A stretch of DNA of 64,000 nt, taken from assembly GCA_021324365.1 (NCBI GenBank), contig JAJPJE010000043.1, positions 1 to 64,000 on the forward strand, read 5' to 3'. The stretch is from Terriglobia bacterium. GTDB lineage: Bacteria > Acidobacteriota > Terriglobia > Terriglobales > Acidobacteriaceae. Positions 31,609 to 46,950 of this stretch are shown piece by piece (position 1 is the stretch's first letter; each line of letters starts with the position of its first letter). Position numbers and translations under genes: made by a program. The notes beneath the pieces were generated by a model. It did no database searches and was not told where the DNA came from. It saw only the letters and a list, made by a program, of their open reading frames with translations.

Positions 31609-33818
31609 GCCGGATAATCCAGTGCTTCGGGGATCATGATTTTGGAAATCGCCTCCGCAGCGCGGTCCTTAGCCAAACGGCATCCCGTAAGACAAATATC
31701 GAGCCTGCTGCGCAGCACCTGGAACTGCTGCAAGCCCGCACAACCGGCGCATGGCCCAGCCTTGCCCGCGTGAGAGCCGTCGGTGGCGATCACATCGAGT
31801 GCACACGCTGCGATCCCTGGCATGATACTCTCCAGTTCATCCAAGTCTTCGGCGCGATAACACGACTTATATCCCTCAGCATCCCACGCCGGATGGCGGT
31901 TATAGCCAAATACCAGCTCTGCGCAGATCCGTCCCGCTTCTCCGCTGGCCCGTGCCGTTTGCACATGGCACAGGTCGCTCATGAAGTTGAGCAGTCCGTG
32001 CAAACCGTCCGCCAGTGCGGCATCTTCACCTCCGCGTCTCTCCAGTTCAAGCACATCGAGAATCTGGCAACGTGCCGCAACCAGCCAGCACAACGCATCT
32101 GCCAGCGGAAATGTCACGCCTTGCCGGGCACTGTGATAGAGCTTCGACCCGTCTGCATCCGACGTGTGCTGCAGATGGTCGATACTCCACAACCACAACA
32201 GCATCGCCGTCGCCAGCGTGCATGCGCCCGTGCCGGGGTGTGTAGCGGCAATCTCACGCATCTCGCGTACCCAATTTCGGAACTGCGCCAGGAAAACAGG
32301 GTTCGTCATAGTCACCGACAACTGGCGACGCTGCACAGCCTCGGGCCCTTCGTAAGTGGCTTCGAGTTGCGAATCCATCCACTTGTGGCCGAGAAAGCCG
32401 GGGCAATCTTCCGTAATTCCATACCCGCCCATGAGGCTGACGGCCTCACGCATCATCTGCGAACCAAACCCCGTGTTCCACAACTTAGTGGCGGGACATA
32501 GCACGTCGGCCAGCGAATCCATTTGCACGAAGCGCAGCATCGGATCAGCTTCTAGCTTCGCTCTTTGTGCATCGTACGCTGGCAGATCCAGCAACTTCAC
32601 GGCCTCATCCCACGCTTCCCGAAAGATTTTCATTCGCGCACGAGCACCGGTAATTCCGCGCTGTGTCAACTGTTCGTCAATCTCACGCTCGATCGGGTCG
32701 AGTTCATCGAAGAGTCGTGAGGCTGCGAATCCCAGCGATGCGCTGGCCTCGCCTGCCGCCCACACGTCTACCAGTCGATGCAGCGCGTCTTCTCTCTGCT
32801 GAAGCCCAAGTTCATAACGGATGGATCCCGGCGTAGCCATTTCCGCGCCGCGAAAGCGCCCTCGCTGGTACCGAATGATCGGCTCAACGGCGGACAACAG
32901 CTTGGCAGCCGTCATCACGCCGACCGTCACTCGCGTTCTGCGGAATACAGCCTCGATGACTTCGCTATGGCTAAATCGCGGAACAATGACGCCATCCTTA
33001 ATGTCATAACCGCCCACAATGCGGCTGGCTGGAATTCGCAGGCTAAAGATCGGATCGCCGGTTGAAGAAAGCTGATGAACCAGTTTGCGGGTGGGAGTTC
33101 CGCGATCAAATGTTCCCGGATCACCTTCCTCCAGGATGACCATGCAGCTTCCCTTGATGCGTGGATCGGCAGAGTCGACGGCTGCCGTTACGAAATTCGC
33201 GAATCCAATATTCGTGATGAACCGGCCCCGTTTTTCGACATGCAGGATTGGCTCGTCTCCCGGATTCCACGATTCCACACGGAGCTTGCCATTCAGCATG
33301 CCCGTGTCTACGCCAACGTAGGGAATCGGTTCGGTCAGGCAAAAGGCTCCGCGCCAAGGTCTGCGCTCTTCTCCCGGCTGCGCCGGAGCCGCAAGTCGCA
33401 TGTAGTGATCTCGTTGTTCGGGCGTACCGCGCTCGTGGATCGGCGCCAACGCGAGACATCCTGCAAGACTTCCCGTTGCCGCTCCGCCATCTACCCAAGC
33501 CAGTTCGAATGCAACCAGAGCGAGCGCCAGATTCTTTGGTCCGGCAATGAAACCGCCCTGTTCAGGTTCCATGAAAACTGCCGTGATTCCCGATTTATCG
33601 AAGTACTCCAGCAGTTCCGACTTTTGCTCAGTCCATTCATGCGAATTGCGGCCTCCGGCAGCGACCAGCCGTGCCACGGGACCACGCGCAACAGCGCGCA
33701 CTGACTGGATCAGCATTTGCAAGTCATAGCGATCCGCGAATCGCCACTGGATTTGTCTCACCAAATCAGTGGGCAAGGTGTGGAGAGTCTCCGGAGCGGC
33801 GGAAATCGCGGTTGCCAT
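31605..33818 (-). CDS. Large acyl-CoA dehydrogenase (operon with ETF genes)
   Basis: A 737-residue protein. The central part has acyl-CoA dehydrogenase features: GITAVFMEPEQGG, AFCLTEPIPYVGVD, RFITNIGFANFVTAAVD, FSLRIPASRIVGGYDI, VSLMGGYGITEDCPGFLGHKWMDSQLEATYEGPE (Glu in TYEG near 491 is the likely base). A ~200-residue C-terminal extension, Cys-rich near the end (GPCAGCAGLQQF), has no recognised function. The protein is nearly twice the usual 380 residues. The start has AAAGGAAG upstream. It leads the operon ACAD, FixC-FixX, EtfB, EtfA, so it presumably hands electrons directly to this ETF. The substrate is unknown. Confidence 0.88.
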   Translation of the reverse strand: MATAISAAPETLHTLPTDLVRQIQWRFADRYDLQMLIQSVRAVARGPVARLVAAGGRNSHEWTEQKSELLEYFDKSGITAVFMEPEQGGFIAGPKNLALALVAFELAWVDGGAATGSLAGCLALAPIHERGTPEQRDHYMRLAAPAQPGEERRPWRGAFCLTEPIPYVGVDTGMLNGKLRVESWNPGDEPILHVEKRGRFITNIGFANFVTAAVDSADPRIKGSCMVILEEGDPGTFDRGTPTRKLVHQLSSTGDPIFSLRIPASRIVGGYDIKDGVIVPRFSHSEVIEAVFRRTRVTVGVMTAAKLLSAVEPIIRYQRGRFRGAEMATPGSIRYELGLQQREDALHRLVDVWAAGEASASLGFAASRLFDELDPIEREIDEQLTQRGITGARARMKIFREAWDEAVKLLDLPAYDAQRAKLEADPMLRFVQMDSLADVLCPATKLWNTGFGSQMMREAVSLMGGYGITEDCPGFLGHKWMDSQLEATYEGPEAVQRRQLSVTMTNPVFLAQFRNWVREMREIAATHPGTGACTLATAMLLWLWSIDHLQHTSDADGSKLYHSARQGVTFPLADALCWLVAARCQILDVLELERRGGEDAALADGLHGLLNFMSDLCHVQTARASGEAGRICAELVFGYNRHPAWDAEGYKSCYRAEDLDELESIMPGIAACALDVIATDGSHAGKAGPCAGCAGLQQFQVLRSRLDICLTGCRLAKDRAAEAISKIMIPEALDYPA

Positions 33819-34294: not shown

Positions 34295-35206
34295 GTGCAT
34301 CGACCTAAGTTGTCTCCCGGTAACGTGAACACTCCCTGGAATGGACATTTCTCTTCGTTCGACCTGGTAACGAAGAAGAGTCCGGACGCCCAGACAGTTA
34401 TCCGCGTCCGCGACATCGAGATCGGTGCTGGCGACTTCGTCGTGATGGCAGGACCGTGCGCCGTTGAGTCCGAGCAACAGGTTCTGCGCACGGCGGAGTC
34501 TGTCGCGCGCTCCGGTGCCCGCATCCTGCGTGGTGGCGCCTACAAACCTCGCTCCTCGCCCTATTCCTTTCAGGGACTCGGCATCGACGGACTCAAGATC
34601 CTGGCCAAAGCCCGAGAAGCTACCGGACTCGCGATTGTCACGGAGGTCATGTCCGAAACTGACGTACCCGTGATCGCGGAGTATACCGACATCATGCAAG
34701 TCGGCACCCGCAACATGGAGAACTATTCCCTGCTGGAAGCGCTCGGTAAATGCGGGCGCGCCGTTCTTCTGAAGCGCGGCATGACGGCGACCCTGCAGGA
34801 GTTATTGCGCTCTGCCCAGTGCATCGTGATGGCGGGCAATCCGGATGTCATTTTCTGCGAGCGCGGAATTCGCACTTTCGAGAAAGCAACCCGCAATACT
34901 TTCGACGTAAGTGCTGTTCCGGTATTGAAAATGGTTTCACATCTGCCGGTCATTGTTGATCCCAGCCATGCTGCCGGCTTGCGAGCGCTTGTACCAGTTC
35001 TCGCGCGCGCCGGAGTTGTTGTTGGAGCCGACGGCCTGCTGGTCGAAGTTCACCCGAATCCTGCAAAGGCGATGAGCGATGGGGAACAATCGCTAACCTT
35101 CGACCAGTTTGCGTCCATGATGCGCGATCTGCAGCCCTATATCGACCTTCAGGCGGAATATCGGGAAGTTCAGTCGGAATTGGCCGTTTCGGCAGGGGGT
35201 CGTTAG
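34295..35206 (+). CDS. aroF: 3-deoxy-7-phosphoheptulonate (DAHP) synthase
   Basis: A 303-residue TIM-barrel enzyme condensing phosphoenolpyruvate with erythrose-4-phosphate, the first step of aromatic synthesis. Motifs of the AroA-beta/KDO8P-like type: [89 protein letters not shown] and [22 protein letters not shown]. Only a short N-terminus precedes the barrel, with no ACT or chorismate-mutase domain. The start is uncertain: GTG at 34295 is given, GTG at 34325 is possible, and neither has a clear Shine-Dalgarno. It is followed after 5 bp by the exported-protein cluster, so read-through is possible. Confidence 0.93.
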
Positions 35207-35211
35207 CGAAA

Positions 35212-36609
35212 ATGCGGCCAATCAAACTCCCCTTCCTTTTGATCTCATGCCTGCTCTTCATATCCGCATCTTCATTTGGCGGTTCTGCTCTCAGCACTCC
35301 AGCCATCATCTACACCACAGCACCTAGATACGATTCCGAAGCGTGGCTTCGCGGCGCGGAACGATTTCCCGCCGGCGCGAAACTCTGGATCCACGACGCT
35401 AAGCGCCAACGCGAGCTGTTTCGCGAGTTCGCCGCCTCGGCCGATCCAAATGTCTCATTCGACGGCACGCGGGTTCTGTTCGCAGCCAAGCGCCGCATGA
35501 GCGATCATTGGCAGATATGGGAAGGCGCAACGGATGGCACCGACCCGAAGCAGATCACGGCCTGCAAATCCGATTGCATTACTCCGTTCTACCTCCCCGG
35601 CTCGCAATTTGTTTTTGCCGAGCGTAAAAACGGCCGCTTCGTAATCGAAACCGCCCCTTTGAACGAAGACCAGGCTGAGTATGGAATCCGCCCCGCCTTG
35701 AGTGCGCAGATCAACGCCGTTCCACTCACTTTCATCCCCGGCAATGCGCTTCCCACCGATGTTCTCCGCGATGGCCGCATTCTGTTCCAAGCTGCTTATC
35801 CTCTAGGTGCTGGTTCGAAAGCGGAACTCTATACCGTTTACAGCGACGGCAGCGGAGTGGAATCCTATCGCTGCGATCACGGGGCCGACCGCCACTCAGG
35901 CAGGCAGAACGATGCCGGCGACATCGTCTTCGTCTCCTCAAACCGTCTTGAACGCTTCACCTCGCCACTGGCACACGCGGATGCGATTAGTTCACCCGCC
36001 GGGCAGTTTGCAGGAGACGTAGTCCAATTGCCCTCGGGGGATTGGCTGGTATCTTGGCGTTCCAGTTCTGCCGAGCCGTATCGGCTCATGCAGTGGAGAC
36101 CCACCGCTCAAACACTACAACCCTTTACGTCGGAGAGCGGCTCGAATCTCGTCCAACCGGCAGTCATAGTAAAGCGACCCGTTCCCAACCGCCATCCATC
36201 CGGTCTGCACGAATGGGCGAACGCAAACATCCTTTGTCTTAACGCTTATACATCCAAAGATCATTTCGACCCAGGTTCAATCGCGAGCGTGAAGGTCTAT
36301 GCTGCCGCCACATCGGGCGAGCCGAAACTTCTTGGTTCTTCTCCCGTTGAAAGTGATGGATCTTTCTTCCTGCACGTCCCGTCCGACCAACCCATCCGCT
36401 TCGAACTACTCGACAGGAGAGGAAAAACGCTGAAGAAGGAATCAGGCTGGTTCTGGATGCGCCGCGGAGAGCAACGTATTTGCGTCGGTTGTCATGCCGG
36501 ACCTGAACGCGCTCCTGATAACGAAGTTCCCGAAGTTCTCCAGAAGTCGACTGATCCGCTCGACCTTACCTTGCAACCGGCCCACAGCACACGGACAGGA
36601 GGTCACTAA
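35212..36609 (+). CDS. Exported TolB-like propeller with one haem c site (HzsA-related)
   Basis: A 465-residue protein with a signal peptide (LPFLLISCLLFISASSFGGSA). Its WD/TolB-like propeller has blades ending in DGTRVLFAAKRR, GSQFVFAERK, DGRILFQAAYP, GDIVFVSSNRLE. A C-terminal haem-binding motif CVGCHAGPERAPDNEVP is at about 424-440. The propeller plus R-x-C-V-G-C-H-x-G-PE layout resembles proteins annotated as hydrazine-synthase A-related, found in many bacteria without anammox. One covalently bound haem is predicted, with unknown partner. It is the first gene of the 35.2-43.5 kb cluster; the next gene begins 1 bp after its stop. Confidence 0.82.
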   Translation: MRPIKLPFLLISCLLFISASSFGGSALSTPAIIYTTAPRYDSEAWLRGAERFPAGAKLWIHDAKRQRELFREFAASADPNVSFDGTRVLFAAKRRMSDHWQIWEGATDGTDPKQITACKSDCITPFYLPGSQFVFAERKNGRFVIETAPLNEDQAEYGIRPALSAQINAVPLTFIPGNALPTDVLRDGRILFQAAYPLGAGSKAELYTVYSDGSGVESYRCDHGADRHSGRQNDAGDIVFVSSNRLERFTSPLAHADAISSPAGQFAGDVVQLPSGDWLVSWRSSSAEPYRLMQWRPTAQTLQPFTSESGSNLVQPAVIVKRPVPNRHPSGLHEWANANILCLNAYTSKDHFDPGSIASVKVYAAATSGEPKLLGSSPVESDGSFFLHVPSDQPIRFELLDRRGKTLKKESGWFWMRRGEQRICVGCHAGPERAPDNEVPEVLQKSTDPLDLTLQPAHSTRTGGH

Positions 36610-36610
36610 T

Positions 36611-38230
36611 TTGTTCGGTCGAATTTTCGTCACTTTAATGCTTTCGTCCGCGCTGCTGGCCCAGTCGCCCAAAGGGTCTATTCAGTTTGAGGATGCCACT
36701 GCGAAAGCGGGCATCGACTTCACGCACAGTTTCGGGGCGCGCGATCTCGGCTCTCTGCTCGAAGGCACCGGTGGCGGCTGTGTCTGGTTCGATTACAACA
36801 ACGACGGAAAGCCCGACCTGTACGTCGTGTCCGGCAAGCCGCTGGGCCCCGGCATGCACCCGTATCCTCTGAAGGAACCGCCTGCTACTTCTCCTCACAA
36901 TCATCTCTACCGCAATGATGGCAACGGCAAGTTTACGGATGTTACCGATCAGGCAGGCGTCGCAGCAAACATTTACGGCATGGCCGCGATTGCCGCGGAC
37001 TACGACAATGACGGCTTTGTCGATCTCTTCGTCACCGGTTACGGTCAGGCAATCCTCTACCACAACAACGGGAACGGCACCTTCACCGATGTCACTGCCA
37101 AGACCGGCATTCACGTAGACCGCTGGTCCATCAGCTCTACTTGGCTCGATTACGACAAGGACGGTTGTGTCGACCTCTTCGTCGGTCGCTACGTGCAATT
37201 CGATCCCAAATACCGCAACTACTACGCTGCCGACAACTACCCCGGACCTCTCGACTATGAAGGCGATACCAATCGCCTGTATCACAACAATTGCGACGGA
37301 ACCTTCACTGATGTGACCGACAAGTCCGGCATTGGCGCCTTCAAGGGCCGCACCATGGGTGTGACCGCAGCCGACTTCGATGGCGACGGCTACCCCGACA
37401 TTTATGTCGCCAATGACAAGACCGAAAACTTCCTGTTCCGCAACAAGCACGACGGAACATTCGAGGAAATCGCTTCTGATTCCGGGACCGCCTTCGGGCA
37501 GAACGGCGAATCGACGTCAGCGATGGGCCCCGTGTTTGCCGACGTTGACGGCGATGGCCTCATCGACCTCTGGGTAACCGACTCCAAGTACAACCGCCTG
37601 CTGAAGAACATTGGCAAGAACAGGTTCGAGGACATCAGCGAGAAGGCCGGCATTTCGCAAGCGACCGCGCAATATACCAGTTGGGGCACCGGAATTTACG
37701 ACTTCGATAACGACGGCATTCCGGACATCATGATCTTCCACGGTGGCCTGATTCACCTCGTCCCGCAGGAACAATCCCTGTTTCGCGGACTCGGCAATGG
37801 TCTCTACCAAGATGTCTCGCGCCAGGCAGGTGCGGTGATGGACGTAAAGACTGTTTCGCGTGGCGCATGTTTCGCCGACTATGACAACGACGGCAAGATG
37901 GATGCCTTCCTCGTGAATCTTGGAGCGCGAGGCACGCTGTTTCACAACGTTTCCCAGAACACGAATCATTGGGTAGCGGTCAAGTTACGCGGCAAGAAGT
38001 CTAATCGCGACGGCATTGGCGCCTATCTTGAACTCACCGCCGGCGGAAAGAAGCAGGTGGCTGAGCGATTCGCTGGCTCCGGTTATCTTTCTCAGGACGA
38101 TGATCGCGTGCACTTCGGGCTTGGAGCATCGACCAGAATCGACAAGCTCACAGTCAAGTGGCCCAGTGGAAAAGAGCAGACAGTCCACAAACTGAAAATC
38201 GATCAGGTCAATATCGTGGAGGAGCCGTGA
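36611..38230 (+). CDS. Exported FG-GAP/VCBS and ASPIC/UnbV (CRTAC1-type) protein
   Basis: A 539-residue protein with a short signal peptide (IFVTLMLSSALLAQ). Seven calcium-binding D-x-D/N-x-DG-x-x-D loops (DYNNDGKPDLY, DYDNDGFVDLF, DYDKDGCVDLF, DFDGDGYPDIY, DVDGDGLIDLW, DFDNDGIPDIM, DYDNDGKMDAF) form a beta-propeller. The C-terminal ASPIC/UnbV domain has NHWVAVKLRGKKSNRDGIGA, GSGYLSQDDDRVHFGLG and KLTVKWPSGKEQTV. Function is unknown; such proteins are thought to bind ligands or scaffold outside the cell. The start is TTG at 36611 with AGGAGGT 7 nt before; the longer upstream frame runs through the previous gene. It ends in a GTGA overlap with the next gene. Confidence 0.9.
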   Translation: MFGRIFVTLMLSSALLAQSPKGSIQFEDATAKAGIDFTHSFGARDLGSLLEGTGGGCVWFDYNNDGKPDLYVVSGKPLGPGMHPYPLKEPPATSPHNHLYRNDGNGKFTDVTDQAGVAANIYGMAAIAADYDNDGFVDLFVTGYGQAILYHNNGNGTFTDVTAKTGIHVDRWSISSTWLDYDKDGCVDLFVGRYVQFDPKYRNYYAADNYPGPLDYEGDTNRLYHNNCDGTFTDVTDKSGIGAFKGRTMGVTAADFDGDGYPDIYVANDKTENFLFRNKHDGTFEEIASDSGTAFGQNGESTSAMGPVFADVDGDGLIDLWVTDSKYNRLLKNIGKNRFEDISEKAGISQATAQYTSWGTGIYDFDNDGIPDIMIFHGGLIHLVPQEQSLFRGLGNGLYQDVSRQAGAVMDVKTVSRGACFADYDNDGKMDAFLVNLGARGTLFHNVSQNTNHWVAVKLRGKKSNRDGIGAYLELTAGGKKQVAERFAGSGYLSQDDDRVHFGLGASTRIDKLTVKWPSGKEQTVHKLKIDQVNIVEEP

Positions 38231-40083
38231 TCCGCAAGCGCTTCCAACTGGCGATTGCGGTCGGCTTGCTGGTCGCAGCGGTTTTGGCTCTGGGTGCCTG
38301 GTCGGCCAGCGAGCAGGAGCGATACCTGAATCCTGTGGAGATGGCGTTCTCGCCTGATGGCAGATTCCTCTATGTAATCTGCGAGAACGCGGACCAGTTG
38401 CGCGTCGTCGACCTCGCGAGCGGTGCCGTGGTGAAGCAAATCACGGTTGGTAGAATGCCAACCGGACTCTCTCTTTCGCCGGATGGCAAGCAGATCTACG
38501 TCGCTAACTCCTGGTCCGACAACATCTCAGTCATCGATTCCGACACCCTGGAAGTCACACGCACACTTCCGGCAGGCTTTGAGCCCATCAGTGCGATTTC
38601 CGATCGCGACGGAAAGACCCTATATGCCGCCAACCGTCTGAGTAACGATATTTCAGTCCTCGATCTTGCCAGCGGCAAGGAAATCAAGCGCCTCGTAGCA
38701 GGCCGGGGAGCCAGTTATCTCTCACTCACCCCTGACGGCAAATACATCTACTGCACACATATTTATCCCAACATCGGCAAATTCCGTACGCCCCCGGAAT
38801 CCGAGATCACCGTCGTTGACACCCTCACCCAGGAAATTGTTGAGCGCAAGCCGCTCCATAGTATCGCCGGCGTTTTCCATGTCGCCACTTCTACTGACGG
38901 CAAGTTAAGCGTTGTTGCCGAGCTTCAACCCAAGAACCTCATTCCTCTTGCCCACGTCGAGCATGGCTGGGCATTCGTCGATTCCCTTGCCATCTTCGGC
39001 GAAGACGTAAACGGCATCGTCCAAGTGCCCATCGACGAACTGGAACGCTACTTCGCGCGACCCTTTGGCCTAGCGATTTCAAAGGACAAATCGAAGATCT
39101 TCGTCACTAGCGGCGGCGCAGCAACCGTCACCGTCATTGACACTCAACAGCTACTGGCGTTCGCAAGATCTCAGCACTCGTCTTTTGCAAACGATCTCTC
39201 CGCCTCGGCGAACTATGTTATTGCGCGAGTACCCGTTGGTCCGGATCCCCGCGGCGTGCTTCTTTCTCCCGATGGCAGCCGGTTGTATGTCGCCAATCGT
39301 CTCGGTGACACCGTCGACGTCATCGACACCAACCGGAACGAAGTTACCCGGTCCATCGACCTTGGCGGTCCGAAAACCATCACTGGGAAACGTAGAGGCG
39401 AGCGTCTTTTTTACAACGCAAAATTCGCCTTTCAGGGCCAATTCAGTTGCGCGAACTGTCATCTGGATTCGACCTTCGATGGCCTGAACTGGGATCTCGA
39501 ACCCGATGGTTTCGGCAAAGATATCGTCGACAACCGTTCCATAGAAGATCTCAGCGGCACCGAACCCTTCAAATGGAATGGCGGTAATCCCAACCTGCAG
39601 ACCGAGTGCGGCCCCCGGACCGAAAAATTCTTCTACCGTTCGCAGAGCTACAACGATAAGGAACTGGCCGACCTGGTTTCTTACATCTTCTCCATTCCGC
39701 TGCGACCCAACCGGTATCGCCTGCCTAATGGGCAACTCACGGCGGCGCAGGAGCGCGGCAAGGCCATCTTCGAACGTACCTTCACCAAGGCCGGTAAGCC
39801 GATTCCTGAAAACAATCAATGTGCCTATTGTCACAGCGGTCCGAAGTACACCAATCGCAGGCTCTTCGACGTAGGTTCAGGCAAGCCGACCGATCGCTCT
39901 CCCTTGATTGACACGGCGCACTTGCCGAATATCGCCTACTCGGCTCCGTATCTTCACGATGGCTCCGCACGGTCGCTCGAAGAGATCTGGACAGTATTCA
40001 ATCCGCATGACACGCACGGAGTGACCAACGATCTGACCAAGGATGAACTGAACGACTTGATCGAATACCTGAGGACACTATGA
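38227..40083 (+). CDS. Exported YVTN beta-propeller fused to di-haem (MauG/CcpA-like) cytochrome
   Basis: A 618-residue protein. A signal anchor (FQLAIAVGLLVAAVLALGAWSA) precedes YVTN-type repeats (FSPDGRFLYVICENADQLRVVDLASG, SPDGKQIYVANSWSDNISVID, LYAANRLSNDISVLDLASG, SPDGSRLYVANRLGDTVDVID). Two haem c sites follow, CANCH (about 408-412) and CAYCH (about 532-536). NIAYSAPYLHDGSARSLEE is a hallmark of the di-haem peroxidase/MauG family. It could oxidise a substrate or partner protein in the periplasm. The start is GTG at 38227, sharing GTGA with the upstream stop, and GGAGGAG precedes it. It overlaps the next gene by 4 bp (ATGA). Confidence 0.9.
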   Translation: MIRKRFQLAIAVGLLVAAVLALGAWSASEQERYLNPVEMAFSPDGRFLYVICENADQLRVVDLASGAVVKQITVGRMPTGLSLSPDGKQIYVANSWSDNISVIDSDTLEVTRTLPAGFEPISAISDRDGKTLYAANRLSNDISVLDLASGKEIKRLVAGRGASYLSLTPDGKYIYCTHIYPNIGKFRTPPESEITVVDTLTQEIVERKPLHSIAGVFHVATSTDGKLSVVAELQPKNLIPLAHVEHGWAFVDSLAIFGEDVNGIVQVPIDELERYFARPFGLAISKDKSKIFVTSGGAATVTVIDTQQLLAFARSQHSSFANDLSASANYVIARVPVGPDPRGVLLSPDGSRLYVANRLGDTVDVIDTNRNEVTRSIDLGGPKTITGKRRGERLFYNAKFAFQGQFSCANCHLDSTFDGLNWDLEPDGFGKDIVDNRSIEDLSGTEPFKWNGGNPNLQTECGPRTEKFFYRSQSYNDKELADLVSYIFSIPLRPNRYRLPNGQLTAAQERGKAIFERTFTKAGKPIPENNQCAYCHSGPKYTNRRLFDVGSGKPTDRSPLIDTAHLPNIAYSAPYLHDGSARSLEEIWTVFNPHDTHGVTNDLTKDELNDLIEYLRTL

Positions 40084-41144
40084 AAACACGCATTAGGTTA
40101 ATCGCGCTGTGTTTCAACCTTGCGCTCACCTGCGCTGCCATGGCTCAGGATATGCCACGCTTTCGCTGGGAGAACTTCACCACCGAGAACGGCCTGCCTA
40201 ATAATCACGTCTACTGTGTCCTGGTAGACGCCCCACGCATCTGGGCCGGTACCGACGACGGACTAGGCCTACTTCAAGATGGAAAGTGGAAAGTCTATCG
40301 ACCTGCTGACGGCCTCGCTCACCAGGCAGTGCTGGGCCTCGCACTCGACAAACGCACTGGCGACGTCTGGGCAGCAACCCTTGGTGGCATCAGCCGTATC
40401 TCCGCCGGACGCATCGACAGCTTTACGCAACTGAATTCCGGCCTCCCCAATGATGTTGTCTACGGCGTAGGAGTGCTTGGCGATTATGTCTGGGTTGCGA
40501 CCGCAGCCGGTGGCGGCCGACTGAATACGCGCACCAATCAATGGTCTCTTTACAACGAGCGCAACACGCCCATGTACGAAATCTGGACGTACGCGGTAAG
40601 CCCTGCGACTGACAAGGTCTACTACGCGGTCTGGGGCGCCGGGGTGTTGGAGTACGACGTCGCGACGCAACACTGGAAGGACTACAACGACCCGGACGGT
40701 GAAACCGAGATGGTGCTATTTAAAGACCAAGGGCTCATTCACGAGATCACCACGTCCGTCAGTTATGTCGACAAGATTCTGTGGGTAGCCACCTATTTTG
40801 GTGCCAGTCGCTACGACGGCCGCAATTGGCACAACTTCCTCACTAAGGACAGCGGCCTTCCCAGCAACTTCCTCAACCAGGTGAAAGCTATCGACGCAAA
40901 TCGCGCCTGGTTCAGTACTGACAAGGGTCTTGCCTACTACGATGGCGCCAACTGGGCCGTGTACCGTCCGGCGCTCGACACGCATAAGCCGGAAATGCTG
41001 ATTCGTGACGCCTCCGGACGAACTTTCAGCGTCCCGGTCGACACCGCCCCAGCGCATAACTACATCCTTGGTGTGGATTTTCAAGGTGACGACCTCTGGG
41101 TCGCCACCGCGGAAGGGTTAAGTCATGGAATTCGACAGAAGTGA
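40080..41144 (+). CDS. Exported ligand-sensor propeller (two-component regulator propeller type)
   Basis: A 354-residue exported protein with a signal peptide (LIALCFNLALTCAAMAQ). Repeats such as TENGLPNNHVYCVLVD, RIWAGTDDGLGLLQDGKW, DVWAATLGGISRI, NSGLPNDVVYGVGV, LWVATYFGASRYDGRNW and AWFSTDKGLAYYDGANW are the Reg_prop propeller repeats normally found in the sensor part of hybrid two-component systems. Here there is no membrane helix, kinase or receiver after the propeller, so it is a stand-alone sensor or binding module. It starts inside the stop of the cytochrome gene (ATGA). Confidence 0.88.
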   Translation: MKTRIRLIALCFNLALTCAAMAQDMPRFRWENFTTENGLPNNHVYCVLVDAPRIWAGTDDGLGLLQDGKWKVYRPADGLAHQAVLGLALDKRTGDVWAATLGGISRISAGRIDSFTQLNSGLPNDVVYGVGVLGDYVWVATAAGGGRLNTRTNQWSLYNERNTPMYEIWTYAVSPATDKVYYAVWGAGVLEYDVATQHWKDYNDPDGETEMVLFKDQGLIHEITTSVSYVDKILWVATYFGASRYDGRNWHNFLTKDSGLPSNFLNQVKAIDANRAWFSTDKGLAYYDGANWAVYRPALDTHKPEMLIRDASGRTFSVPVDTAPAHNYILGVDFQGDDLWVATAEGLSHGIRQK

Positions 41145-41156
41145 GGAGCTATTCAT

Positions 41157-41642
41157 ATGCAGGTAGAGGAAATTCTTGAAGCTATTGCGCACGCTCCTAT
41201 TGAGAAACGTGCGATCACCAATCATGCAGTCCTCAACGAAGCCTACGACTATTCGAAGCCCAGCTCATTCGTTCGCGGGATGCGCATTGATTTAAACGGG
41301 CTAGTGATCCTGCTGATTTCCGGCACGGCCAGCATCGACGAGTATGGCAAGACCGTGCACGTCGGCGATTTCCGCGCGCAGTGCCGCCGCACCTTCCACA
41401 ACATCACGGGCCTGCTTGAGTCGGAAGGCTGTACGTGGAAAGACATCGTTCGCACGACCTGCTATCTGCGTGACATCGACCGAGACTACGAAGCCTTCAA
41501 TGAAGAGCGCACAGCGTTCTACAAGCAGCAGGGACTTGATCCTGTGCCGGCATCCACAGGTATTCAGGCGAAGCTTTGCCGCCCCGATCTGCTGGTCGAA
41601 ATTGAAGCTATTGCAATGTTCCGCGAAACTCCAAAGGAGTAG
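41157..41642 (+). CDS. RidA (YjgF/YER057c/UK114)-family protein
   Basis: A 161-residue chorismate-mutase-like trimeric protein; the family hydrolyses reactive enamines/imines. Motifs: LVILLISGTASIDEYGKTVHVGDFRAQCRRTFHNITGLLESEGCTWKDIVRTTCYLRDIDRDYEAFNEER and PASTGIQAKLCRPDLLVEIEAIA, where the Arg of the catalytic CRPDLLVEIE region is present. About 30 residues longer than standard RidA, at the N-terminus. No signal peptide. GAGGAG precedes the ATG. It is the only cytosolic product in the exported cluster, suggesting imine or amine chemistry. Confidence 0.88.
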   Translation: MQVEEILEAIAHAPIEKRAITNHAVLNEAYDYSKPSSFVRGMRIDLNGLVILLISGTASIDEYGKTVHVGDFRAQCRRTFHNITGLLESEGCTWKDIVRTTCYLRDIDRDYEAFNEERTAFYKQQGLDPVPASTGIQAKLCRPDLLVEIEAIAMFRETPKE

Positions 41643-41645
41643 CCA

Positions 41646-43496
41646 ATGCGCCGCGTTCTGCTGGTTGGTATCGTTACTTTGATTATGCCCCTTGCCTGGG
41701 CTCAGTCAACCTTCACGTGTTCGTGCGGCAAGAATCCTCCGGGCAAGCCGAAAAACCGCGAGATGCGCCCTTATGCGGAAGAACCGGACGATCTGCGGCC
41801 TTACTCGAAGTTCACCACGCCCTACTACGAGCACTACACGACCCTGGTGGAATACAACGGCGGCGCGCGCGACGTCGCCGATCCGGATCCAAGCACCATC
41901 ACCGAGGTTCGCATCGGCTTTCTCGGCCCCGTCTACGATCACCCTGATCATGCCCTCGGTCAAAAGATGCTCAACGGCGTCAACATGGCCATCGAAGAAG
42001 CGAACGCCGCTGGCGGTTACGGCGGCAAGCCGTTCCGCCTGATGGTTCACAACGACTCAGCGACTTGGGGCGCGTCCAGCAACGAAATTATCAAAATGGC
42101 ATACGACGAAAAAGTCTGGGCCATGTACGGGTCGCTTAGCGGTGACTCTACGCATATCGGCCTTCGCGTCAATTTGAAGACCGAAGTACCCATGGTGAAC
42201 AGTGCCTCCACCGATCCCACTATCCCCGAAACCATCATTCCGTGGTACTTGGAGACTCTGCAGGATGATCGCGTTCAAGGCTATACCATCGCCCGCCGCA
42301 TCTACACCGAGCTAGGCCTGAAGCGCGTGGCGATTCTTCGGGTCAACGATCGCTACGGCCGCTTCGGTGTCTTGAAGTTCAAAGACGCCTCTCGGCGGCT
42401 TGGTCATCCCGTCATCATCGAGCAGAAGTTCATGCCCGGGGACACCGACTACACGCATCAGTTGAAGGTGATCAACGACTCGCGTGTCGACGCCATTGTG
42501 CTATGGACGGACGAAATCCCCGCCGGCAACATCCTGAAGCAAATGCGCTCGCTCGGCATGAAGCAGCCCGTTTTTGGCAGCCACCGTACGATGGGTGCTG
42601 ATCTGCTCAGGACCGCAGGGTCAGCCGCCGACGGCTTCGAAGCGGTGTATCCCTACGATCCCAGCAGCAAAGATTCGAAATGGCTCGATTTTCAGGCGCG
42701 CTACGAGGCAAAGTACCACGAGAAGCCTGACCACTTCGCTGCTCTTGCCTACGACACCATGCAAATCCTGCTGCACGCCATTTGCGAGGCTGGCTTAAAC
42801 CGCGGTCGTATTCGCGACGCGCTAACCGCCACAGAAACCTACGACGGCGTCACTGGCCACATGGTCTTCGATCCGAACTGCAAGGACATCCGCTCACTTT
42901 ACTGGGCCACTGTCAGCAAGGGACAAGTCGACTACCGTCCGGCTACGATGGAAAAAGCCTACGCACGAGTCGGCGAGGACGGCGTCCAATATGCCGGACC
43001 CAAACTTCCGGACCAGATTGCAACGAATCTAAAGCTTGTAGTCTTCGGGCCTGATGCTGACGAGTTAGTTCGATCGAATTCTTTGGTCAGCATGATAGGA
43101 GAACTGAATCGTCGCAACGCGCAACAGATTTCATTGCTTGGCATTGCTTCCAACGTACAGTGGGGAAAAGCGTCATCGGCTCTCGTCCAGGCGCTCTACG
43201 ATAAGCAGGCTATCGGCATCATCGCCACGGATCGCGCTTCGAGTCACCTTGCCGAACAGCTCGGAGTAAAGGCTTTCGTCCCGGTGATCGCGATCGCTGA
43301 CGATCGTTCGCTTACATCGACGAATATCCCTTGGATCTTCCGGCTTCCGGAAGGAGCCTCTCCCGATCAGGCGATTCGCATCTTTTCGGAAGCGATCGAT
43401 AGGGCCGGCGCCAATCGCGAAAAGATTCGCGACGTTCTCGCGTCTGGAAACACGATCGCGGGAGTGAGCTTCGAAAGCACCGGAGAACTTCGATAG
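41646..43496 (+). CDS. Periplasmic ABC-type substrate-binding protein with second partial domain
   Basis: A 616-residue exported protein (signal MRRVLLVGIVTLIMPLAWAQ, then a TCSCG cysteine pair). Residues about 85-430 form a branched-chain amino acid/LivJ-like periplasmic-binding domain (VRIGFLGPVYDHPDHALGQKMLNGVNMAIEEANAAGG, MVNSASTDPTIPETIIPWY, VAILRVNDRYGRFG, DHFAALAYDTMQILLHAI). Residues about 455-600 look like a second, incomplete binding domain (LVVFGPDADELV, LLGIASNVQWGKASSALVQALYDKQAIGIIATDRASSHLAEQLG, PWIFRLPEGASPDQAIRIF). No permease or ATPase gene is nearby, so it may be a sensor or scavenger rather than a transporter part. AAGGAG precedes the start. Confidence 0.87.
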   Translation: MRRVLLVGIVTLIMPLAWAQSTFTCSCGKNPPGKPKNREMRPYAEEPDDLRPYSKFTTPYYEHYTTLVEYNGGARDVADPDPSTITEVRIGFLGPVYDHPDHALGQKMLNGVNMAIEEANAAGGYGGKPFRLMVHNDSATWGASSNEIIKMAYDEKVWAMYGSLSGDSTHIGLRVNLKTEVPMVNSASTDPTIPETIIPWYLETLQDDRVQGYTIARRIYTELGLKRVAILRVNDRYGRFGVLKFKDASRRLGHPVIIEQKFMPGDTDYTHQLKVINDSRVDAIVLWTDEIPAGNILKQMRSLGMKQPVFGSHRTMGADLLRTAGSAADGFEAVYPYDPSSKDSKWLDFQARYEAKYHEKPDHFAALAYDTMQILLHAICEAGLNRGRIRDALTATETYDGVTGHMVFDPNCKDIRSLYWATVSKGQVDYRPATMEKAYARVGEDGVQYAGPKLPDQIATNLKLVVFGPDADELVRSNSLVSMIGELNRRNAQQISLLGIASNVQWGKASSALVQALYDKQAIGIIATDRASSHLAEQLGVKAFVPVIAIADDRSLTSTNIPWIFRLPEGASPDQAIRIFSEAIDRAGANREKIRDVLASGNTIAGVSFESTGELR

Positions 43497-43619: not shown

Positions 43620-45050
43620 TCATCCTGGAATCGTGAACGTGAACACCGAGCCCTTCCCCAACTGGCTGGTCACTCCGATGGTTCCCCCATGTGCCTCCAC
43701 GATCGCCTTCGCGATTGCCAGACCCATTCCTGTCCCCTGAACGCGGTATCGTTCGCTCTTGCCACGATAAAACTTGTCGAAGATCAGCACCTGCTCCATA
43801 TCATCGATGCCAGACCCTTGATCGGCAACGCTGACTTCAAGCTTGCCATCGAGCGTCGCTGCAGAAATCCTGATCGGCAATTCCGGCGGCGAATACTTTG
43901 CTGCATTCTCCAGCAGTTGGATCAGTACCTCGGTCACGCGTTTCAAGTCCATGCGGGCCGTAGCTTCGGCTGGAACGTGCACATCCACCACGTGCTTCCC
44001 CAACACCTGTTTCAACTCGCTGAGCGCTTGCTGAACTGCCTCTATGACTCTATGCGCCTTCAGGTCCAACTGGAGCTCGTGTGATTCCAGTTCCGAAACC
44101 TCTGCCGCTTCACCGACCAACCGATTCAATCGATCGCTCTCTTCGTTGATGACCGTCATCAATTCCTGGCGATCACCAGGTGCCAGATCGATGTTCGACA
44201 TGAGACTCGTAATTGAAGCCTTGATCGAGGTTAATGGCGTACGAAATTCATGTGTGACCGAATCGAGAATCGCGCTTCGCAATCGCTCACTTTCCCGCGA
44301 CGCCTCATTCTTTGCGAGTTTTTCCAATGCAGTTACGCGCTCAACAGCCACAGCTATGAGGCTTCCAATCGCATCCAACGTCTCCCGCGACAGAGATCCG
44401 GCAACACCAATCGTCCCAACAATGCGCACCCCAAGCTTCAGCGGTGTAAAACTAAGTCGCCGTTCGGTGTCAAAGGTCGGTTCTCCGCGTGCGATCACAC
44501 TCTTCAGATGGTCGGCATCCAGATCGCCGGTCTCCGGGCCTGAACGGTAGATGTCTCCTTTCCCAGGCAAATAGAGTGCCGCTGCCGATACTCCAAACGT
44601 ATTCACAATTGCCGTCGGCAAAGCGTTCAACAGTTCAAGAATGTTTTCGGACGTCAACATCTGCTGGCTGAATTGGTACAGTCGCTCAACTTCGCGGCGC
44701 CTCTGCACCGCCTCTTCCGTCTGCCGGCGCGCCCTATCCGACAACTGGCTCGCTACAATCGCGGTCGCCAGAAAAGCCATGAGCGCTACCCAGTTCTGCG
44801 TGTCGGCAATCGTGAATGTCCCTACCGGAGGAAGAAAGAAGTAGTTGAATGCTGCCGTCGCCAGGACCGCCAGGAATAGTGCGAACCTCAGGCCCCACCA
44901 TGCGGAAACCATCAGCACCGCAACCAGGAATGTGAGCGCTACGGTCGTGGGGTTTATATGTAACAGCACTTTGAACACGTACACCAGCACGATCACCGCC
45001 GCCGCGCACGCCACAAACCTCATCAGGACCTCATGAAGCGGTTTGTTCAC
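43620..45050 (-). CDS. Sensor histidine kinase equal to the C-terminal half of KdpD (DUF4118-GAF-HisKA-HATPase)
   Basis: A 476-residue protein. Four membrane helices of the KdpD DUF4118 type (VACAAAVIVLVYVFKVLL, TVALTFLVAVLMVSAWWGL, ALFLAVLATAAFNYFFLPP, WVALMAFLATAIVAS) are followed by a GAF-like domain. HisKA is at DSVTHEFRTPLTSIKAS (phosphorylated His) and HATPase at ELLENAAKYSP, VADQGSGI, GTGMGLAIAKAIVEAHGG. It lacks the N-terminal KdpD/USP domains, which are encoded by the divergent gene starting 57 bp away. The GTG at 45050 is preferred because AGGGG precedes it and it leaves a short intergenic space. No kdpFABC is in the window. Confidence 0.9.
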   Translation of the reverse strand: MNKPLHEVLMRFVACAAAVIVLVYVFKVLLHINPTTVALTFLVAVLMVSAWWGLRFALFLAVLATAAFNYFFLPPVGTFTIADTQNWVALMAFLATAIVASQLSDRARRQTEEAVQRRREVERLYQFSQQMLTSENILELLNALPTAIVNTFGVSAAALYLPGKGDIYRSGPETGDLDADHLKSVIARGEPTFDTERRLSFTPLKLGVRIVGTIGVAGSLSRETLDAIGSLIAVAVERVTALEKLAKNEASRESERLRSAILDSVTHEFRTPLTSIKASITSLMSNIDLAPGDRQELMTVINEESDRLNRLVGEAAEVSELESHELQLDLKAHRVIEAVQQALSELKQVLGKHVVDVHVPAEATARMDLKRVTEVLIQLLENAAKYSPPELPIRISAATLDGKLEVSVADQGSGIDDMEQVLIFDKFYRGKSERYRVQGTGMGLAIAKAIVEAHGGTIGVTSQLGKGSVFTFTIPG

Positions 45051-45106
45051 GCCCCTGATTGTAGCTGAGTCGACAAAGTTGATGACCTCGACGAAAATAG
45101 GGCGCA

Positions 45107-46243
45107 ATGAGCAAGACACCCGATCAGTGGCTGGAGGAGACCGTGCCGGAGAAAAAAGCCGGCATCTTCAAGCTGTTTCTAGGATACGCACCCGGCGTTG
45201 GCAAAACCTACAACATGCTAAGCGAGGCGATTCGCCGCAGCAGCCGTGGCGAGGATGTCGTAATTGGCGTCATTGAGACGCACGGGAGAAAGGGAGTCGC
45301 CGAACTCGCTGCCAAGTTGGAAACTGTTCCACGCCGCAAAATTGAATATAAAGGCACAATCTTTGAGGAGATGGACGTCGACGCCATTCTCGCGCGGAAA
45401 CCTGCTGTTGTTCTGATTGACGAATTGGCTCATACCAATATTGAGGGCAGTAAACATCGCAAGCGCTACGAGGATGTACTCGAACTGCTCGACGCCAACA
45501 TCGACGTGCTCTCTACCATGAACATCCAGCACCTGGAGAGCATTTCCCCCAGCGTGCAACACATCACTGGCATCGTCGTCCGCGAAACCGTACCTGATTG
45601 GGTGCTGCAGCGAGTAACCGAAATCGTCATGGCCGACCTCACTCCGGAGGCGCTGCAGACGCGTATGCGACGCGGCGATATTTATCCTCAGGATCGCGTC
45701 GAGCGTGCATTAGGAAACTTCTTCCGTCCGGGTAACCTGATCGCGCTTCGCGAACTTGCTCTGCGGCAGGTGGCGCAGGAGGTCGACCGCAGTCTCGAGA
45801 CCTACCTCGAAAAGGAAGAGCCAGAGCGCAATCTCGGCGTGCGGGAGCGTTTTGCAGTTTGCATCAGTTCGAATCCCGCCGCACAGCATCTGATCGCGCG
45901 CGCCGCCAGAATGGCGCATCGCCTCGATGCCGAACTGTTCGTCGTCTATGTCGATACGGGATTCGATGATACGGAAGCGAACCAGAAGTCCTTGCAGGCA
46001 AACATCCGTTTCGCACAAGATGTTGGAGCACAGGTCGTACGACTCAAGGCCACTACGGTGTCGGAAGCGGTTGCGCAATTCGTTCGCGAGAGGCACATCA
46101 CGCAGGTCGTCTTCGGACGCTCGGCAATCAAAGGGTGGCGCCGGTACTTGTACCTCAGCACGATCCACAAATTCTTGCGCGATGCTCCTCCTGTTGACGT
46201 TCATATCGTGACTCAGGAATCAGTGGCGAAGGCAGCGAAGTAA
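45107..46243 (+). CDS. KdpD N-terminal sensor half (KdpD domain plus universal-stress domain)
   Basis: A 378-residue soluble protein with the KdpD N-terminal domain (FKLFLGYAPGVGKTYNMLSEA with a Walker A, VIGVIETHGRKGVAELAAKL, VLIDELAHTN Walker B, DVLELLDANIDVLSTMNIQHLES). From about residue 245 it has a USP-like domain (FAVCISSNPAAQHLIARAARMAHRLDAELFVVYVD, VVFGRSAIKGWRRYL). There is no membrane segment or kinase domain: the half it lacks is on the opposite strand. It ends TAATG, overlapping the response regulator start by 1 bp, so the two form an operon. Truncated KdpD proteins of this kind probably sense nucleotides or ions and act with a separate kinase. Confidence 0.9.
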   Translation: MSKTPDQWLEETVPEKKAGIFKLFLGYAPGVGKTYNMLSEAIRRSSRGEDVVIGVIETHGRKGVAELAAKLETVPRRKIEYKGTIFEEMDVDAILARKPAVVLIDELAHTNIEGSKHRKRYEDVLELLDANIDVLSTMNIQHLESISPSVQHITGIVVRETVPDWVLQRVTEIVMADLTPEALQTRMRRGDIYPQDRVERALGNFFRPGNLIALRELALRQVAQEVDRSLETYLEKEEPERNLGVRERFAVCISSNPAAQHLIARAARMAHRLDAELFVVYVDTGFDDTEANQKSLQANIRFAQDVGAQVVRLKATTVSEAVAQFVRERHITQVVFGRSAIKGWRRYLYLSTIHKFLRDAPPVDVHIVTQESVAKAAK

Positions 46244-46950
46244 TGGAAAGCAAGAAACGCATTCTGATTGTCGACGACGAACCCCAGATTACACGTGTGC
46301 TGCGTACTTCCCTGAACAGCAGCGGCTACGACGTCCGCACCGCCAACAATGGACAAGAAGCCGCCGCGATGGTCCGGGAGTGGACGCCCGATCTCGTCAT
46401 TACGGACGTCGCGATGCCGCTGGTGAACGGCATCGACCTTACTCGCCGCCTCCGAGTTGACTATGACATGCCCATCATCGTCCTTTCGGTAAAAGGCGAA
46501 GAGAAGACCAAGGTCGAGGCGCTTGATGCAGGCGCTGACGACTACGTCACCAAACCGATCGGCATGAACGAACTGCTGGCGCGCGTGCGCCGCAACCTTG
46601 CCCGCGTTGAACTCGCGGAACCAGTAGCACAGGTCTTCGAAGTTGGCGATTTTCGGATCGACCAGGATGCATTTCGCGTCGCAATCCGTGGACAGGACGT
46701 CCGGCTGACGCCAAAGGAATTTGAACTCTTGTTGCACCTGGCGCGAAATGCCGGACGCGTTGTCACGCATCGCAAGCTATTAAACGCCATCTGGGGGCCC
46801 AACAGCGTGGAACAACCCGAACACCTGCGCGTGCTGGTTGGTCAACTCCGCAAGAAACTGGAAACCGAAGACTCTCCTCATTACATCATCACCGAGCCCT
46901 GGGTTGGATATCGGCTCGAACCGTCCGGTGAAAACGGCCGCGGTATTTGA
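46243..46950 (+). CDS. KdpE-like response regulator (OmpR/PhoB family)
   Basis: A 235-residue regulator. The receiver domain holds acidic residues in IVDDEPQ, the phosphorylatable Asp in DLVITDVAMP, and Lys in YVTKPIG. The winged helix (PKEFELLLHLARNAGRVVTHRKLLNAIWGPN, LRVLVGQLRKKLE, GYRLEP) matches KdpE best. It shares the TAATG junction with the KdpD-N gene. Its partner kinase is likely the divergent gene at 43.6-45.05 kb. Targets are unknown; the KirBac gene at 19.8 kb is a possible one. Confidence 0.92.
   Translation: MESKKRILIVDDEPQITRVLRTSLNSSGYDVRTANNGQEAAAMVREWTPDLVITDVAMPLVNGIDLTRRLRVDYDMPIIVLSVKGEEKTKVEALDAGADDYVTKPIGMNELLARVRRNLARVELAEPVAQVFEVGDFRIDQDAFRVAIRGQDVRLTPKEFELLLHLARNAGRVVTHRKLLNAIWGPNSVEQPEHLRVLVGQLRKKLETEDSPHYIITEPWVGYRLEPSGENGRGI

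Follow-up and report, generated by a model that had tools for sequence, protein, structure and literature searches.

Positions 35212-43496 of a 64,000-nucleotide stretch of DNA from a soil acidobacterium (Terriglobia bacterium, contig JAJPJE010000043.1, assembly GCA_021324365.1; the whole stretch is called the window below) raise the question of what a tightly packed set of genes for exported propellers, haem proteins and a binding protein does. An earlier note on this DNA had described a cluster of six genes with no obvious enzyme and had suggested the oxidation or sensing of amines or amino acids in the periplasm. Comparison of sequences and predicted folds indicates that two of the genes, A and C, almost certainly encode a protein pair that belongs to the hydrazine synthase (HZS) family without being a hydrazine synthase, and that the unit comprises at least seven genes:

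34295..35206, plus strand, DAHP synthase (B. subtilis-type), cytoplasmic, seventh gene of the cluster (TIGR01361, 369.2 bits against a cut-off of 267.75)
35212..36609, plus strand, gene A, HZS alpha-like exported propeller with haem-c middle domain, without the haem alpha-II domain, 465 aa
36611..38230, plus strand, gene B, CRTAC1-type protein with FG-GAP and UnbV_ASPIC Pfam domains; TTG start at 36611 behind AGGAGG
38227..40083, plus strand, gene C, fused HZS beta-gamma-like protein with YVTN/YncE propeller and di-haem domain, 618 aa; GTG start at 38227
40080..41144, plus strand, gene D, exported Reg_prop propeller, 354 aa (PF07494, 31.9 bits)
41157..41642, plus strand, gene E, Rid-family protein, cytoplasmic (PF01042, Ribonuc_L-PSP, 70.8 bits)
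41646..43496, plus strand, gene F, exported type-I binding protein of the leucine/isoleucine/valine (LIV) family with an extra C-terminal stretch, 616 aa

The six plus-strand open reading frames (ORFs) A to F of the earlier note were recovered with their spacings (A-B gap of 1 bp, B/C and C/D overlaps of 4 bp each, D-E gap of 12 bp, E-F gap of 3 bp), as were its three haem sites in two proteins (one CxxCH motif in A, two in C). Profile matches likewise upheld its families CRTAC1/UnbV for B, YVTN plus di-haem for C, Reg_prop for D, Rid for E and periplasmic binding protein for F. It had missed the DAHP synthase gene, which ends 5 bp before the start of A and travels with the cluster. The absence of an obvious enzyme has to be withdrawn, since DAHP synthase is one and A and C are members of the HZS family. 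By inspection, N-terminal signal-like stretches are present in A, B, C, D and F and in neither E nor DAHP synthase. Start sites are guesses, with GTG 38227 the most likely one for C. A scan for promoters and terminators gave matches at chance level.

Homology of genes A and C to hydrazine synthase

Gene A matched the Pfam model of the HZS alpha middle domain (PF18582) with 61.8 bits against a cut-off of 26.6, and scored 65.3 bits with the NCBIfam HZS equivalog model, whose cut-off of 800 was not reached. Its sole match in the PDB was chain A of 5C2V (phmmer, 2.1e-15; profile, 1.8e-31). In Foldseek searches of the PDB with AlphaFold models of C and A (mean predicted local distance difference test, pLDDT, 80.8 and 87.1, respectively), 5c2v_A was the best match to A (E 5.1e-23, template modelling score (TM) 0.76 over the query), followed by TolB (1.4e-10). 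Of the earlier description of A as a haem-c TolB-like protein, the haem stands and TolB falls, being the best fold match after HZS; a protein that is TolB-like only was ruled out by the HZS alpha fold match, which is better by about 12 orders of magnitude in E-value. The single haem site of A is the following:

36481..36495, plus strand, haem site of A (CVGCH, residues 424-428), equivalent to haem alpha-I

Tyr591, which ligates haem alpha-I in HZS, is absent, A reading CVGCHAGPER where HZS reads CSGCHYGSYR, and the ungapped Tyr591 position is occupied by Glu in 56 of 65 A homologues. Haem alpha-II is absent too; the protein stops 37 residues past its only CxxCH. Outside the haem motif, A contains a conserved Cys221-Asp-His223 (RCDH; window positions 35872-35880), of which the Cys and the His are each kept in 60 of 65 homologues and are possible metal or haem ligands. 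In one relative (G078, L032:5383-7182), A has an added C-terminal cytochrome c7 domain and four CxxCH motifs in all.

Gene C scored 204.7 bits (E 2.1e-60) with the hydrazine_BC model NF052342, short of its cut-off of 1250. Chains 5c2v_B and 5c2v_C were both matched by phmmer and by profile, and the profile aligned without interruption to HZS beta residues 14-349 (200.7 bits) and in two segments to HZS gamma, up to its final residue. The best Foldseek match of the C model was 5c2v_B (E 1.4e-31, TM 0.84 over the target). Matches to MbnH (37.2 bits), MauG (22.8 bits) and CCP_MauG (33.1 bits) were all weak, and a plain MauG or cytochrome c peroxidase (CCP) was ruled out as the nearest family of C, HZS gamma scoring far better. 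The pyrroloquinoline quinone (PQQ)-associated propeller model TIGR03866 gave 140.9 bits, below its cut-off of 287.3. In PQQ-dependent alcohol catabolism, a TIGR03866 propeller is paired with a TIGR03863 binding protein; the cluster resembles that system in combining a periplasmic YVTN propeller with a type-I binding protein, but differs from it in missing the TIGR03866 cut-off and in having no ABC transporter or PQQ enzyme. Gene F (PF13458, Peripla_BP_6, 151.1 bits; 4gnr_A, 8.4e-34) had no match to TIGR03863.

The haem sites and key residues of C were compared with those of HZS gamma in published numbering (chain number plus 39, checked by script), with residue counts over 78 homologues:

39448..39462, plus strand, haem gamma-I site of C (CANCH, residues 408-412), invariant in 78 homologues
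39574..39576, plus strand, Trp450 of C at the position of HZS gamma-His144, Trp in 77 of 78
39607..39609, plus strand, Cys461 of C at the position of HZS gamma-Cys165, Cys in 71 of 78 and Asp in 6 deep-branching homologues
39820..39834, plus strand, haem gamma-II site of C (CAYCH, residues 532-536), invariant in 78 homologues
40015..40017, plus strand, His597 of C, equivalent to HZS gamma-His332, His in 77 of 78

His229 and His332 are the ligands of haem gamma-II in HZS, His332 being the second axial one (PMC12607021), and the His229 equivalent is kept in all 78 homologues of C. According to PMC12758564, gamma-Cys165 forms a third covalent bond to haem in HZS; the conserved Cys may form an equivalent bond in C. 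The gamma-Asp168 position holds Thr in 72 homologues and the gamma-Glu122 position Asp in 67. The C protein of another relative (G044, L038:8873-10921) has a third CxxCH within an insertion.

Relative to HzsABC of anammox bacteria (PDB 5C2V), the alpha, beta and gamma parts are thus homologous in sequence and predicted fold, and the haem alpha-I CxxCH, both gamma haems and the equivalents of gamma-Cys165, His229 and His332 are shared. The locus differs in the fusion of beta and gamma (as in Scalindua), in an alpha gene that lies upstream rather than downstream, and in its extra cluster genes. Because Tyr591, haem alpha-II, gamma-His144 (replaced by Trp) and gamma-Asp168 (replaced by Thr) are absent, the proteins, judged by their residues, cannot work exactly as a hydrazine synthase does. 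On the gamma side, where electrons enter, the proteins look like HZS; on the alpha side, the site of condensation, they do not. We therefore describe a putative exported haem complex in which A would be a shortened alpha-like subunit with one haem and C a fused beta-gamma-like subunit with two.

Conservation and partner genes

Conservation was assessed in 100 genomes (the host and 99 relatives) and in named loci, which are the best 80 of 426 related stretches; counts are based on loci with enough flank. All 80 belong to metagenome-assembled genomes (MAGs) or assemblies of Acidobacteriota (Acidobacteriaceae, Bryobacterales, Solibacter, Sulfotelmatobacter, Terracidiphilus and others). Among the genes adjoining C, A was present in 68 of 70 loci, B in 70 of 71, D in 77 of 78, E in 72 of 77, F in 74 of 75 and DAHP synthase in 51 of 67. 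Gene order was nearly invariant (loci L026-L041 and L042-L121). It reads DAHP synthase-A-B-C-D-E-F in close relatives and A-B-C-D-E-DAHP synthase-F1-F2 in order- and class-level relatives, where the binding protein is encoded by two separate genes (F1, F2), followed in several by a GMC oxidoreductase. Since the order is kept in the 80 loci and in about 13 related genomes, a chance grouping can be excluded.

A search with C among the 99 relatives returned 13 strong matches (E below 1e-100). D and F were each found in exactly these 13, PF18582 (A) in the same 13 and in G082, and E in 12 of the 13 compared with 4 of the 86 others, with E-value limits of our own choosing. An identical set of 13 among 99 would arise by chance with a probability of 1.6e-16, and the value for E is p = 2.5e-11, both ignoring kinship and gaps in MAGs. 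The same gene order in other acidobacteria and the co-variation of binding protein, RidA and di-haem genes, which the earlier note had proposed to look for, are hence both present, and its view of the cluster as a functional unit of exported proteins is supported by synteny across Acidobacteriota and by the co-occurrence of A, C, D and F. Pairwise distance matrices of all seven genes correlate with r of 0.71-0.93. The cluster occurs twice in the G033 bin, each time on its own contig (G033:C101 and G033:C30; L028 and L029), with C proteins 60 and 58% identical to that of the window; this reflects either a paralogue or a mixed bin. In G082 (L040:10614-15340), a more distant HZS-like pair lacks the intervening CRTAC1 gene. 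Its alpha-like protein has two CxxCH motifs and a C-terminal part resembling, by eye, a formylglycine-generating-enzyme-type domain, and is followed by an 883-aa beta-gamma-like protein.

In the cluster DAHP synthase, Cys55 is invariant and His225, Glu251 and Asp262 are nearly so; these are residues that we take to bind metal and phosphoenolpyruvate. The cluster copy looks dedicated, because its active-site residues are intact, its position within the cluster shifts and the host genome contains six matches to the family in all. Directly upstream of DAHP synthase, 12 loci (including L082, L085, L087, L088, L094 and L096) carry a gene that is amidase-like by eye, preceded in many of them by a further CRTAC1-type gene.

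The Rid protein E carries Ser133 at the position of the catalytic Arg105, invariant in 16 homologues. Imine hydrolysis by RidA needs Arg105, and Ser occurs naturally in about 10% of RidA proteins (PMC4433059). A function as imine hydrolase was ruled out on the basis of this Ser, with the caveat that a minority of RidA proteins naturally carry it. The main support for the amine oxidation proposed in the earlier note is thereby gone, which leaves that reading weak. With a model of FkbO/Hyg5 chorismatases, E gave a weak match of 37.9 bits. Away from the haem cluster, E orthologues lie beside a DAHP synthase gene in G081 (L131:9897-11092) and near genes for prephenate dehydratase and UbiA in G008 (L130:5419-8874).

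Published relatives and competing explanations

The core arrangement of alpha, CRTAC1 and beta-gamma genes with binding proteins has already been published. Hagglund et al. (Genome Biol Evol, December 2025; PMC12758564) describe four clades of HZS homologues from outside anammox, in which alpha precedes a fused beta-gamma gene; clades I and II have a CRTAC1 gene in between, and two substrate-binding protein genes follow downstream. As described there, Tyr591 is missing in clades I-III, haem alpha-II is missing in clades II and III, Trp stands at the His144 position, Paludibaculum fermentans is placed in clade I, and the related clades are judged not to be hydrazine synthases. On this account, our locus shares the gene order of clades I and II and the downstream binding-protein genes, the missing Tyr591 and the Trp of clades I-III, and the missing haem alpha-II and alpha C-terminus of clades II and III. 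It differs in that the acidobacterial group joins the Cys165 of clade I with the short alpha of clades II and III, in its DAHP synthase and Rid partners, and in the breadth of the set in Acidobacteriota. The words 'Acidobacteri', 'DAHP' and 'RidA' do not occur in the main text of that paper. Dalcin Martins et al. 2023 (PMC10732223) suggest a broader HZS-like family with other substrates and propose the hzsABC-like genes of Phycisphaerae UBA1845 as possible novel anammox. UBA1845, as presented there, has a fused hzsBC-like gene with an hzsA-like gene immediately upstream, as here, but the two adjoin directly with no CRTAC1 gene described between them and score 89-163 bits to HZS. The earlier note knew of no described system with this set. 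That statement fails for the core and the binding proteins, which PMC12758564 covers, and holds for DAHP synthase, Rid and Reg_prop, which are absent from its main text. Literature searches on CRTAC1 operons, Rid/chorismatase links and hydrazine synthase in Acidobacteriota returned no prior account of the full set. What appears to be new is the presence of DAHP synthase, Rid and Reg_prop as partners, together with the residue pattern and the wide occurrence in Acidobacteriota.

With regard to function, C shares the di-haem fold and the inter-haem Trp with MauG and bacterial CCP, but is closest to HZS gamma, is fused to a YVTN propeller and has His as the second ligand of the low-spin haem. This ligand is Tyr in MauG and Met in many CCPs; C has His597 at the HZS His332 position. 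That C uses its di-haem half to oxidise a partner protein or an amine in a MauG/CCP-like, peroxide- or amine-linked reaction, with F binding an amine or amino acid and E clearing imines, is accordingly unlikely in our view, even though F falls into the branched-chain amino acid binding family, weak MbnH, MauG and CCP_MauG matches exist, and Trp occupies the same inter-haem place in MauG and CCP (PMC12758564). From the MauG/CcpA-like logic of the earlier note this Trp, at the HZS His144 position, survives, whereas the nearest family does not. Added to the far better scores and the bis-His haem gamma-II of HZS and to the missing imine-hydrolysis Arg of E, the cluster has no MauA or quinoprotein partner. 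The distal residues of MauG are Gln103, Pro107 and Glu113 (PMC6405878); by eye, without alignment to MauG itself, C has Gln/Glu and Pro near the expected places and no Glu at the third.

That soil acidobacteria possess a true hydrazine (N-N) synthase is hardly credible. Homologues of all three HZS subunits in one operon, the retained Cys165 and bis-His haem gamma-II, and one octahaem gene of the hydroxylamine oxidoreductase (HAO) family in the host genome speak for it; against these stand the four losses described above, equivalog scores far off the cut-offs (65 versus 800 and 205 versus 1250), the lack of an HAO-family octahaem protein in 8 of the 13 cluster-bearing relatives, and the same conclusion for related clades in PMC12758564. 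The host octahaem cytochrome has eight CxxCH motifs (447-aa ORF, G000:C9:90706-91542, L134) and adjoins a membrane protein gene. An anammox-like pairing with octahaem HAO is not required, such proteins occurring in 5 of 13 cluster-bearing relatives versus 11 of 86 others (p = 0.034, kinship ignored); their distribution overlaps weakly with that of the HZS-like cluster. A periplasmic complex for electron transfer, sensing or detoxification (of nitric oxide, hydroxylamine, peroxide or a redox metabolite), in which the propellers and the binding protein form a scaffold and ligand sensor and A performs no second catalytic step, would account for the absence of a permease beside four propeller proteins and a binding protein, for the single His-type haem of A without Tyr591, and for the cytochrome c7 domain gained by one relative's A. 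We consider it improbable, as the retention of Cys165 and of the HZS beta propeller suggests catalysis over plain electron transfer, and the cluster contains no regulator or kinase.

Our preferred explanation, to which we give an even chance as a whole, is an HZS-family oxidoreductase of the periplasm whose substrate is a small compound, perhaps derived from shikimate. A role of the haem pair as a redox enzyme is probable. Electrons would enter at the bis-His haem gamma-II and be relayed by the conserved Trp to haem gamma-I, where, next to the conserved Cys, a small molecule would be oxidised or reduced; the product would then cross the propeller and undergo a second step at the alpha-I haem. 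F may capture the substrate in the periplasm, and substrate or product may be derived from shikimate or chorismate and made or recycled in the cytoplasm. This shikimate link is a guess, and a doubtful one, drawn from the DAHP synthase, the Rid protein, the neighbourhoods of E orthologues and the weak chorismatase match. A further, highly unlikely idea is that the HZS fold has a second chemistry outside anammox, in which a periplasmic haem complex common across the Acidobacteriota of soil and peat would form or cleave a bond to nitrogen (possibly N-N or N-C) in a shikimate-derived compound provided by the cluster's DAHP synthase.

Several points weigh against the preferred oxidoreductase. The deep-branching homologues carry Asp at the Cys165 position, so that the haem crosslink is not universal, and the haem gamma-I region of the C model is of low confidence (pLDDT <50 at 419-436 and 447-472). 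The A-C complex is derived from homology, and any genes inherited together would show correlated distance matrices. DAHP synthase is missing in 16 of the 67 loci, most of which are of the Bryobacterales/Solibacter type, and is therefore not essential, and the chorismatase match of E is far under its cut-off of 325. For HZS-like proteins outside anammox we know of no substrate, no product and no activity, nor of an experiment on any member.

To our knowledge, hydrazine synthase has so far been regarded as exclusive to anammox. Its relatives in common soil and peat bacteria form a large, syntenic group that offers a route to the job of the ancestral enzyme, because the active-site equipment is partly kept (Cys165, bis-His gamma-II) and partly lost. 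The recurring partners, namely the binding protein, two more propellers, Rid and DAHP synthase, give tangible hints of the substrate, and anammox should not be concluded from HZS model matches in soil metagenomes.

Genes flanking the cluster

Upstream, window positions 29746-33818 are read on the minus strand, divergently from the cluster, and include an acyl-CoA dehydrogenase-like gene (31605-33818); the adjoining ORF resembles, by eye, an electron transfer flavoprotein-quinone oxidoreductase with a ferredoxin-like C-terminus. The downstream boundary is formed by a sensor histidine kinase gene on the minus strand (43620-45119). Divergent from it, an ORF with a KdpD-like sensor domain and a response regulator lie on the plus strand (45107-46950), and kdpD seems, by eye, to be split in two.

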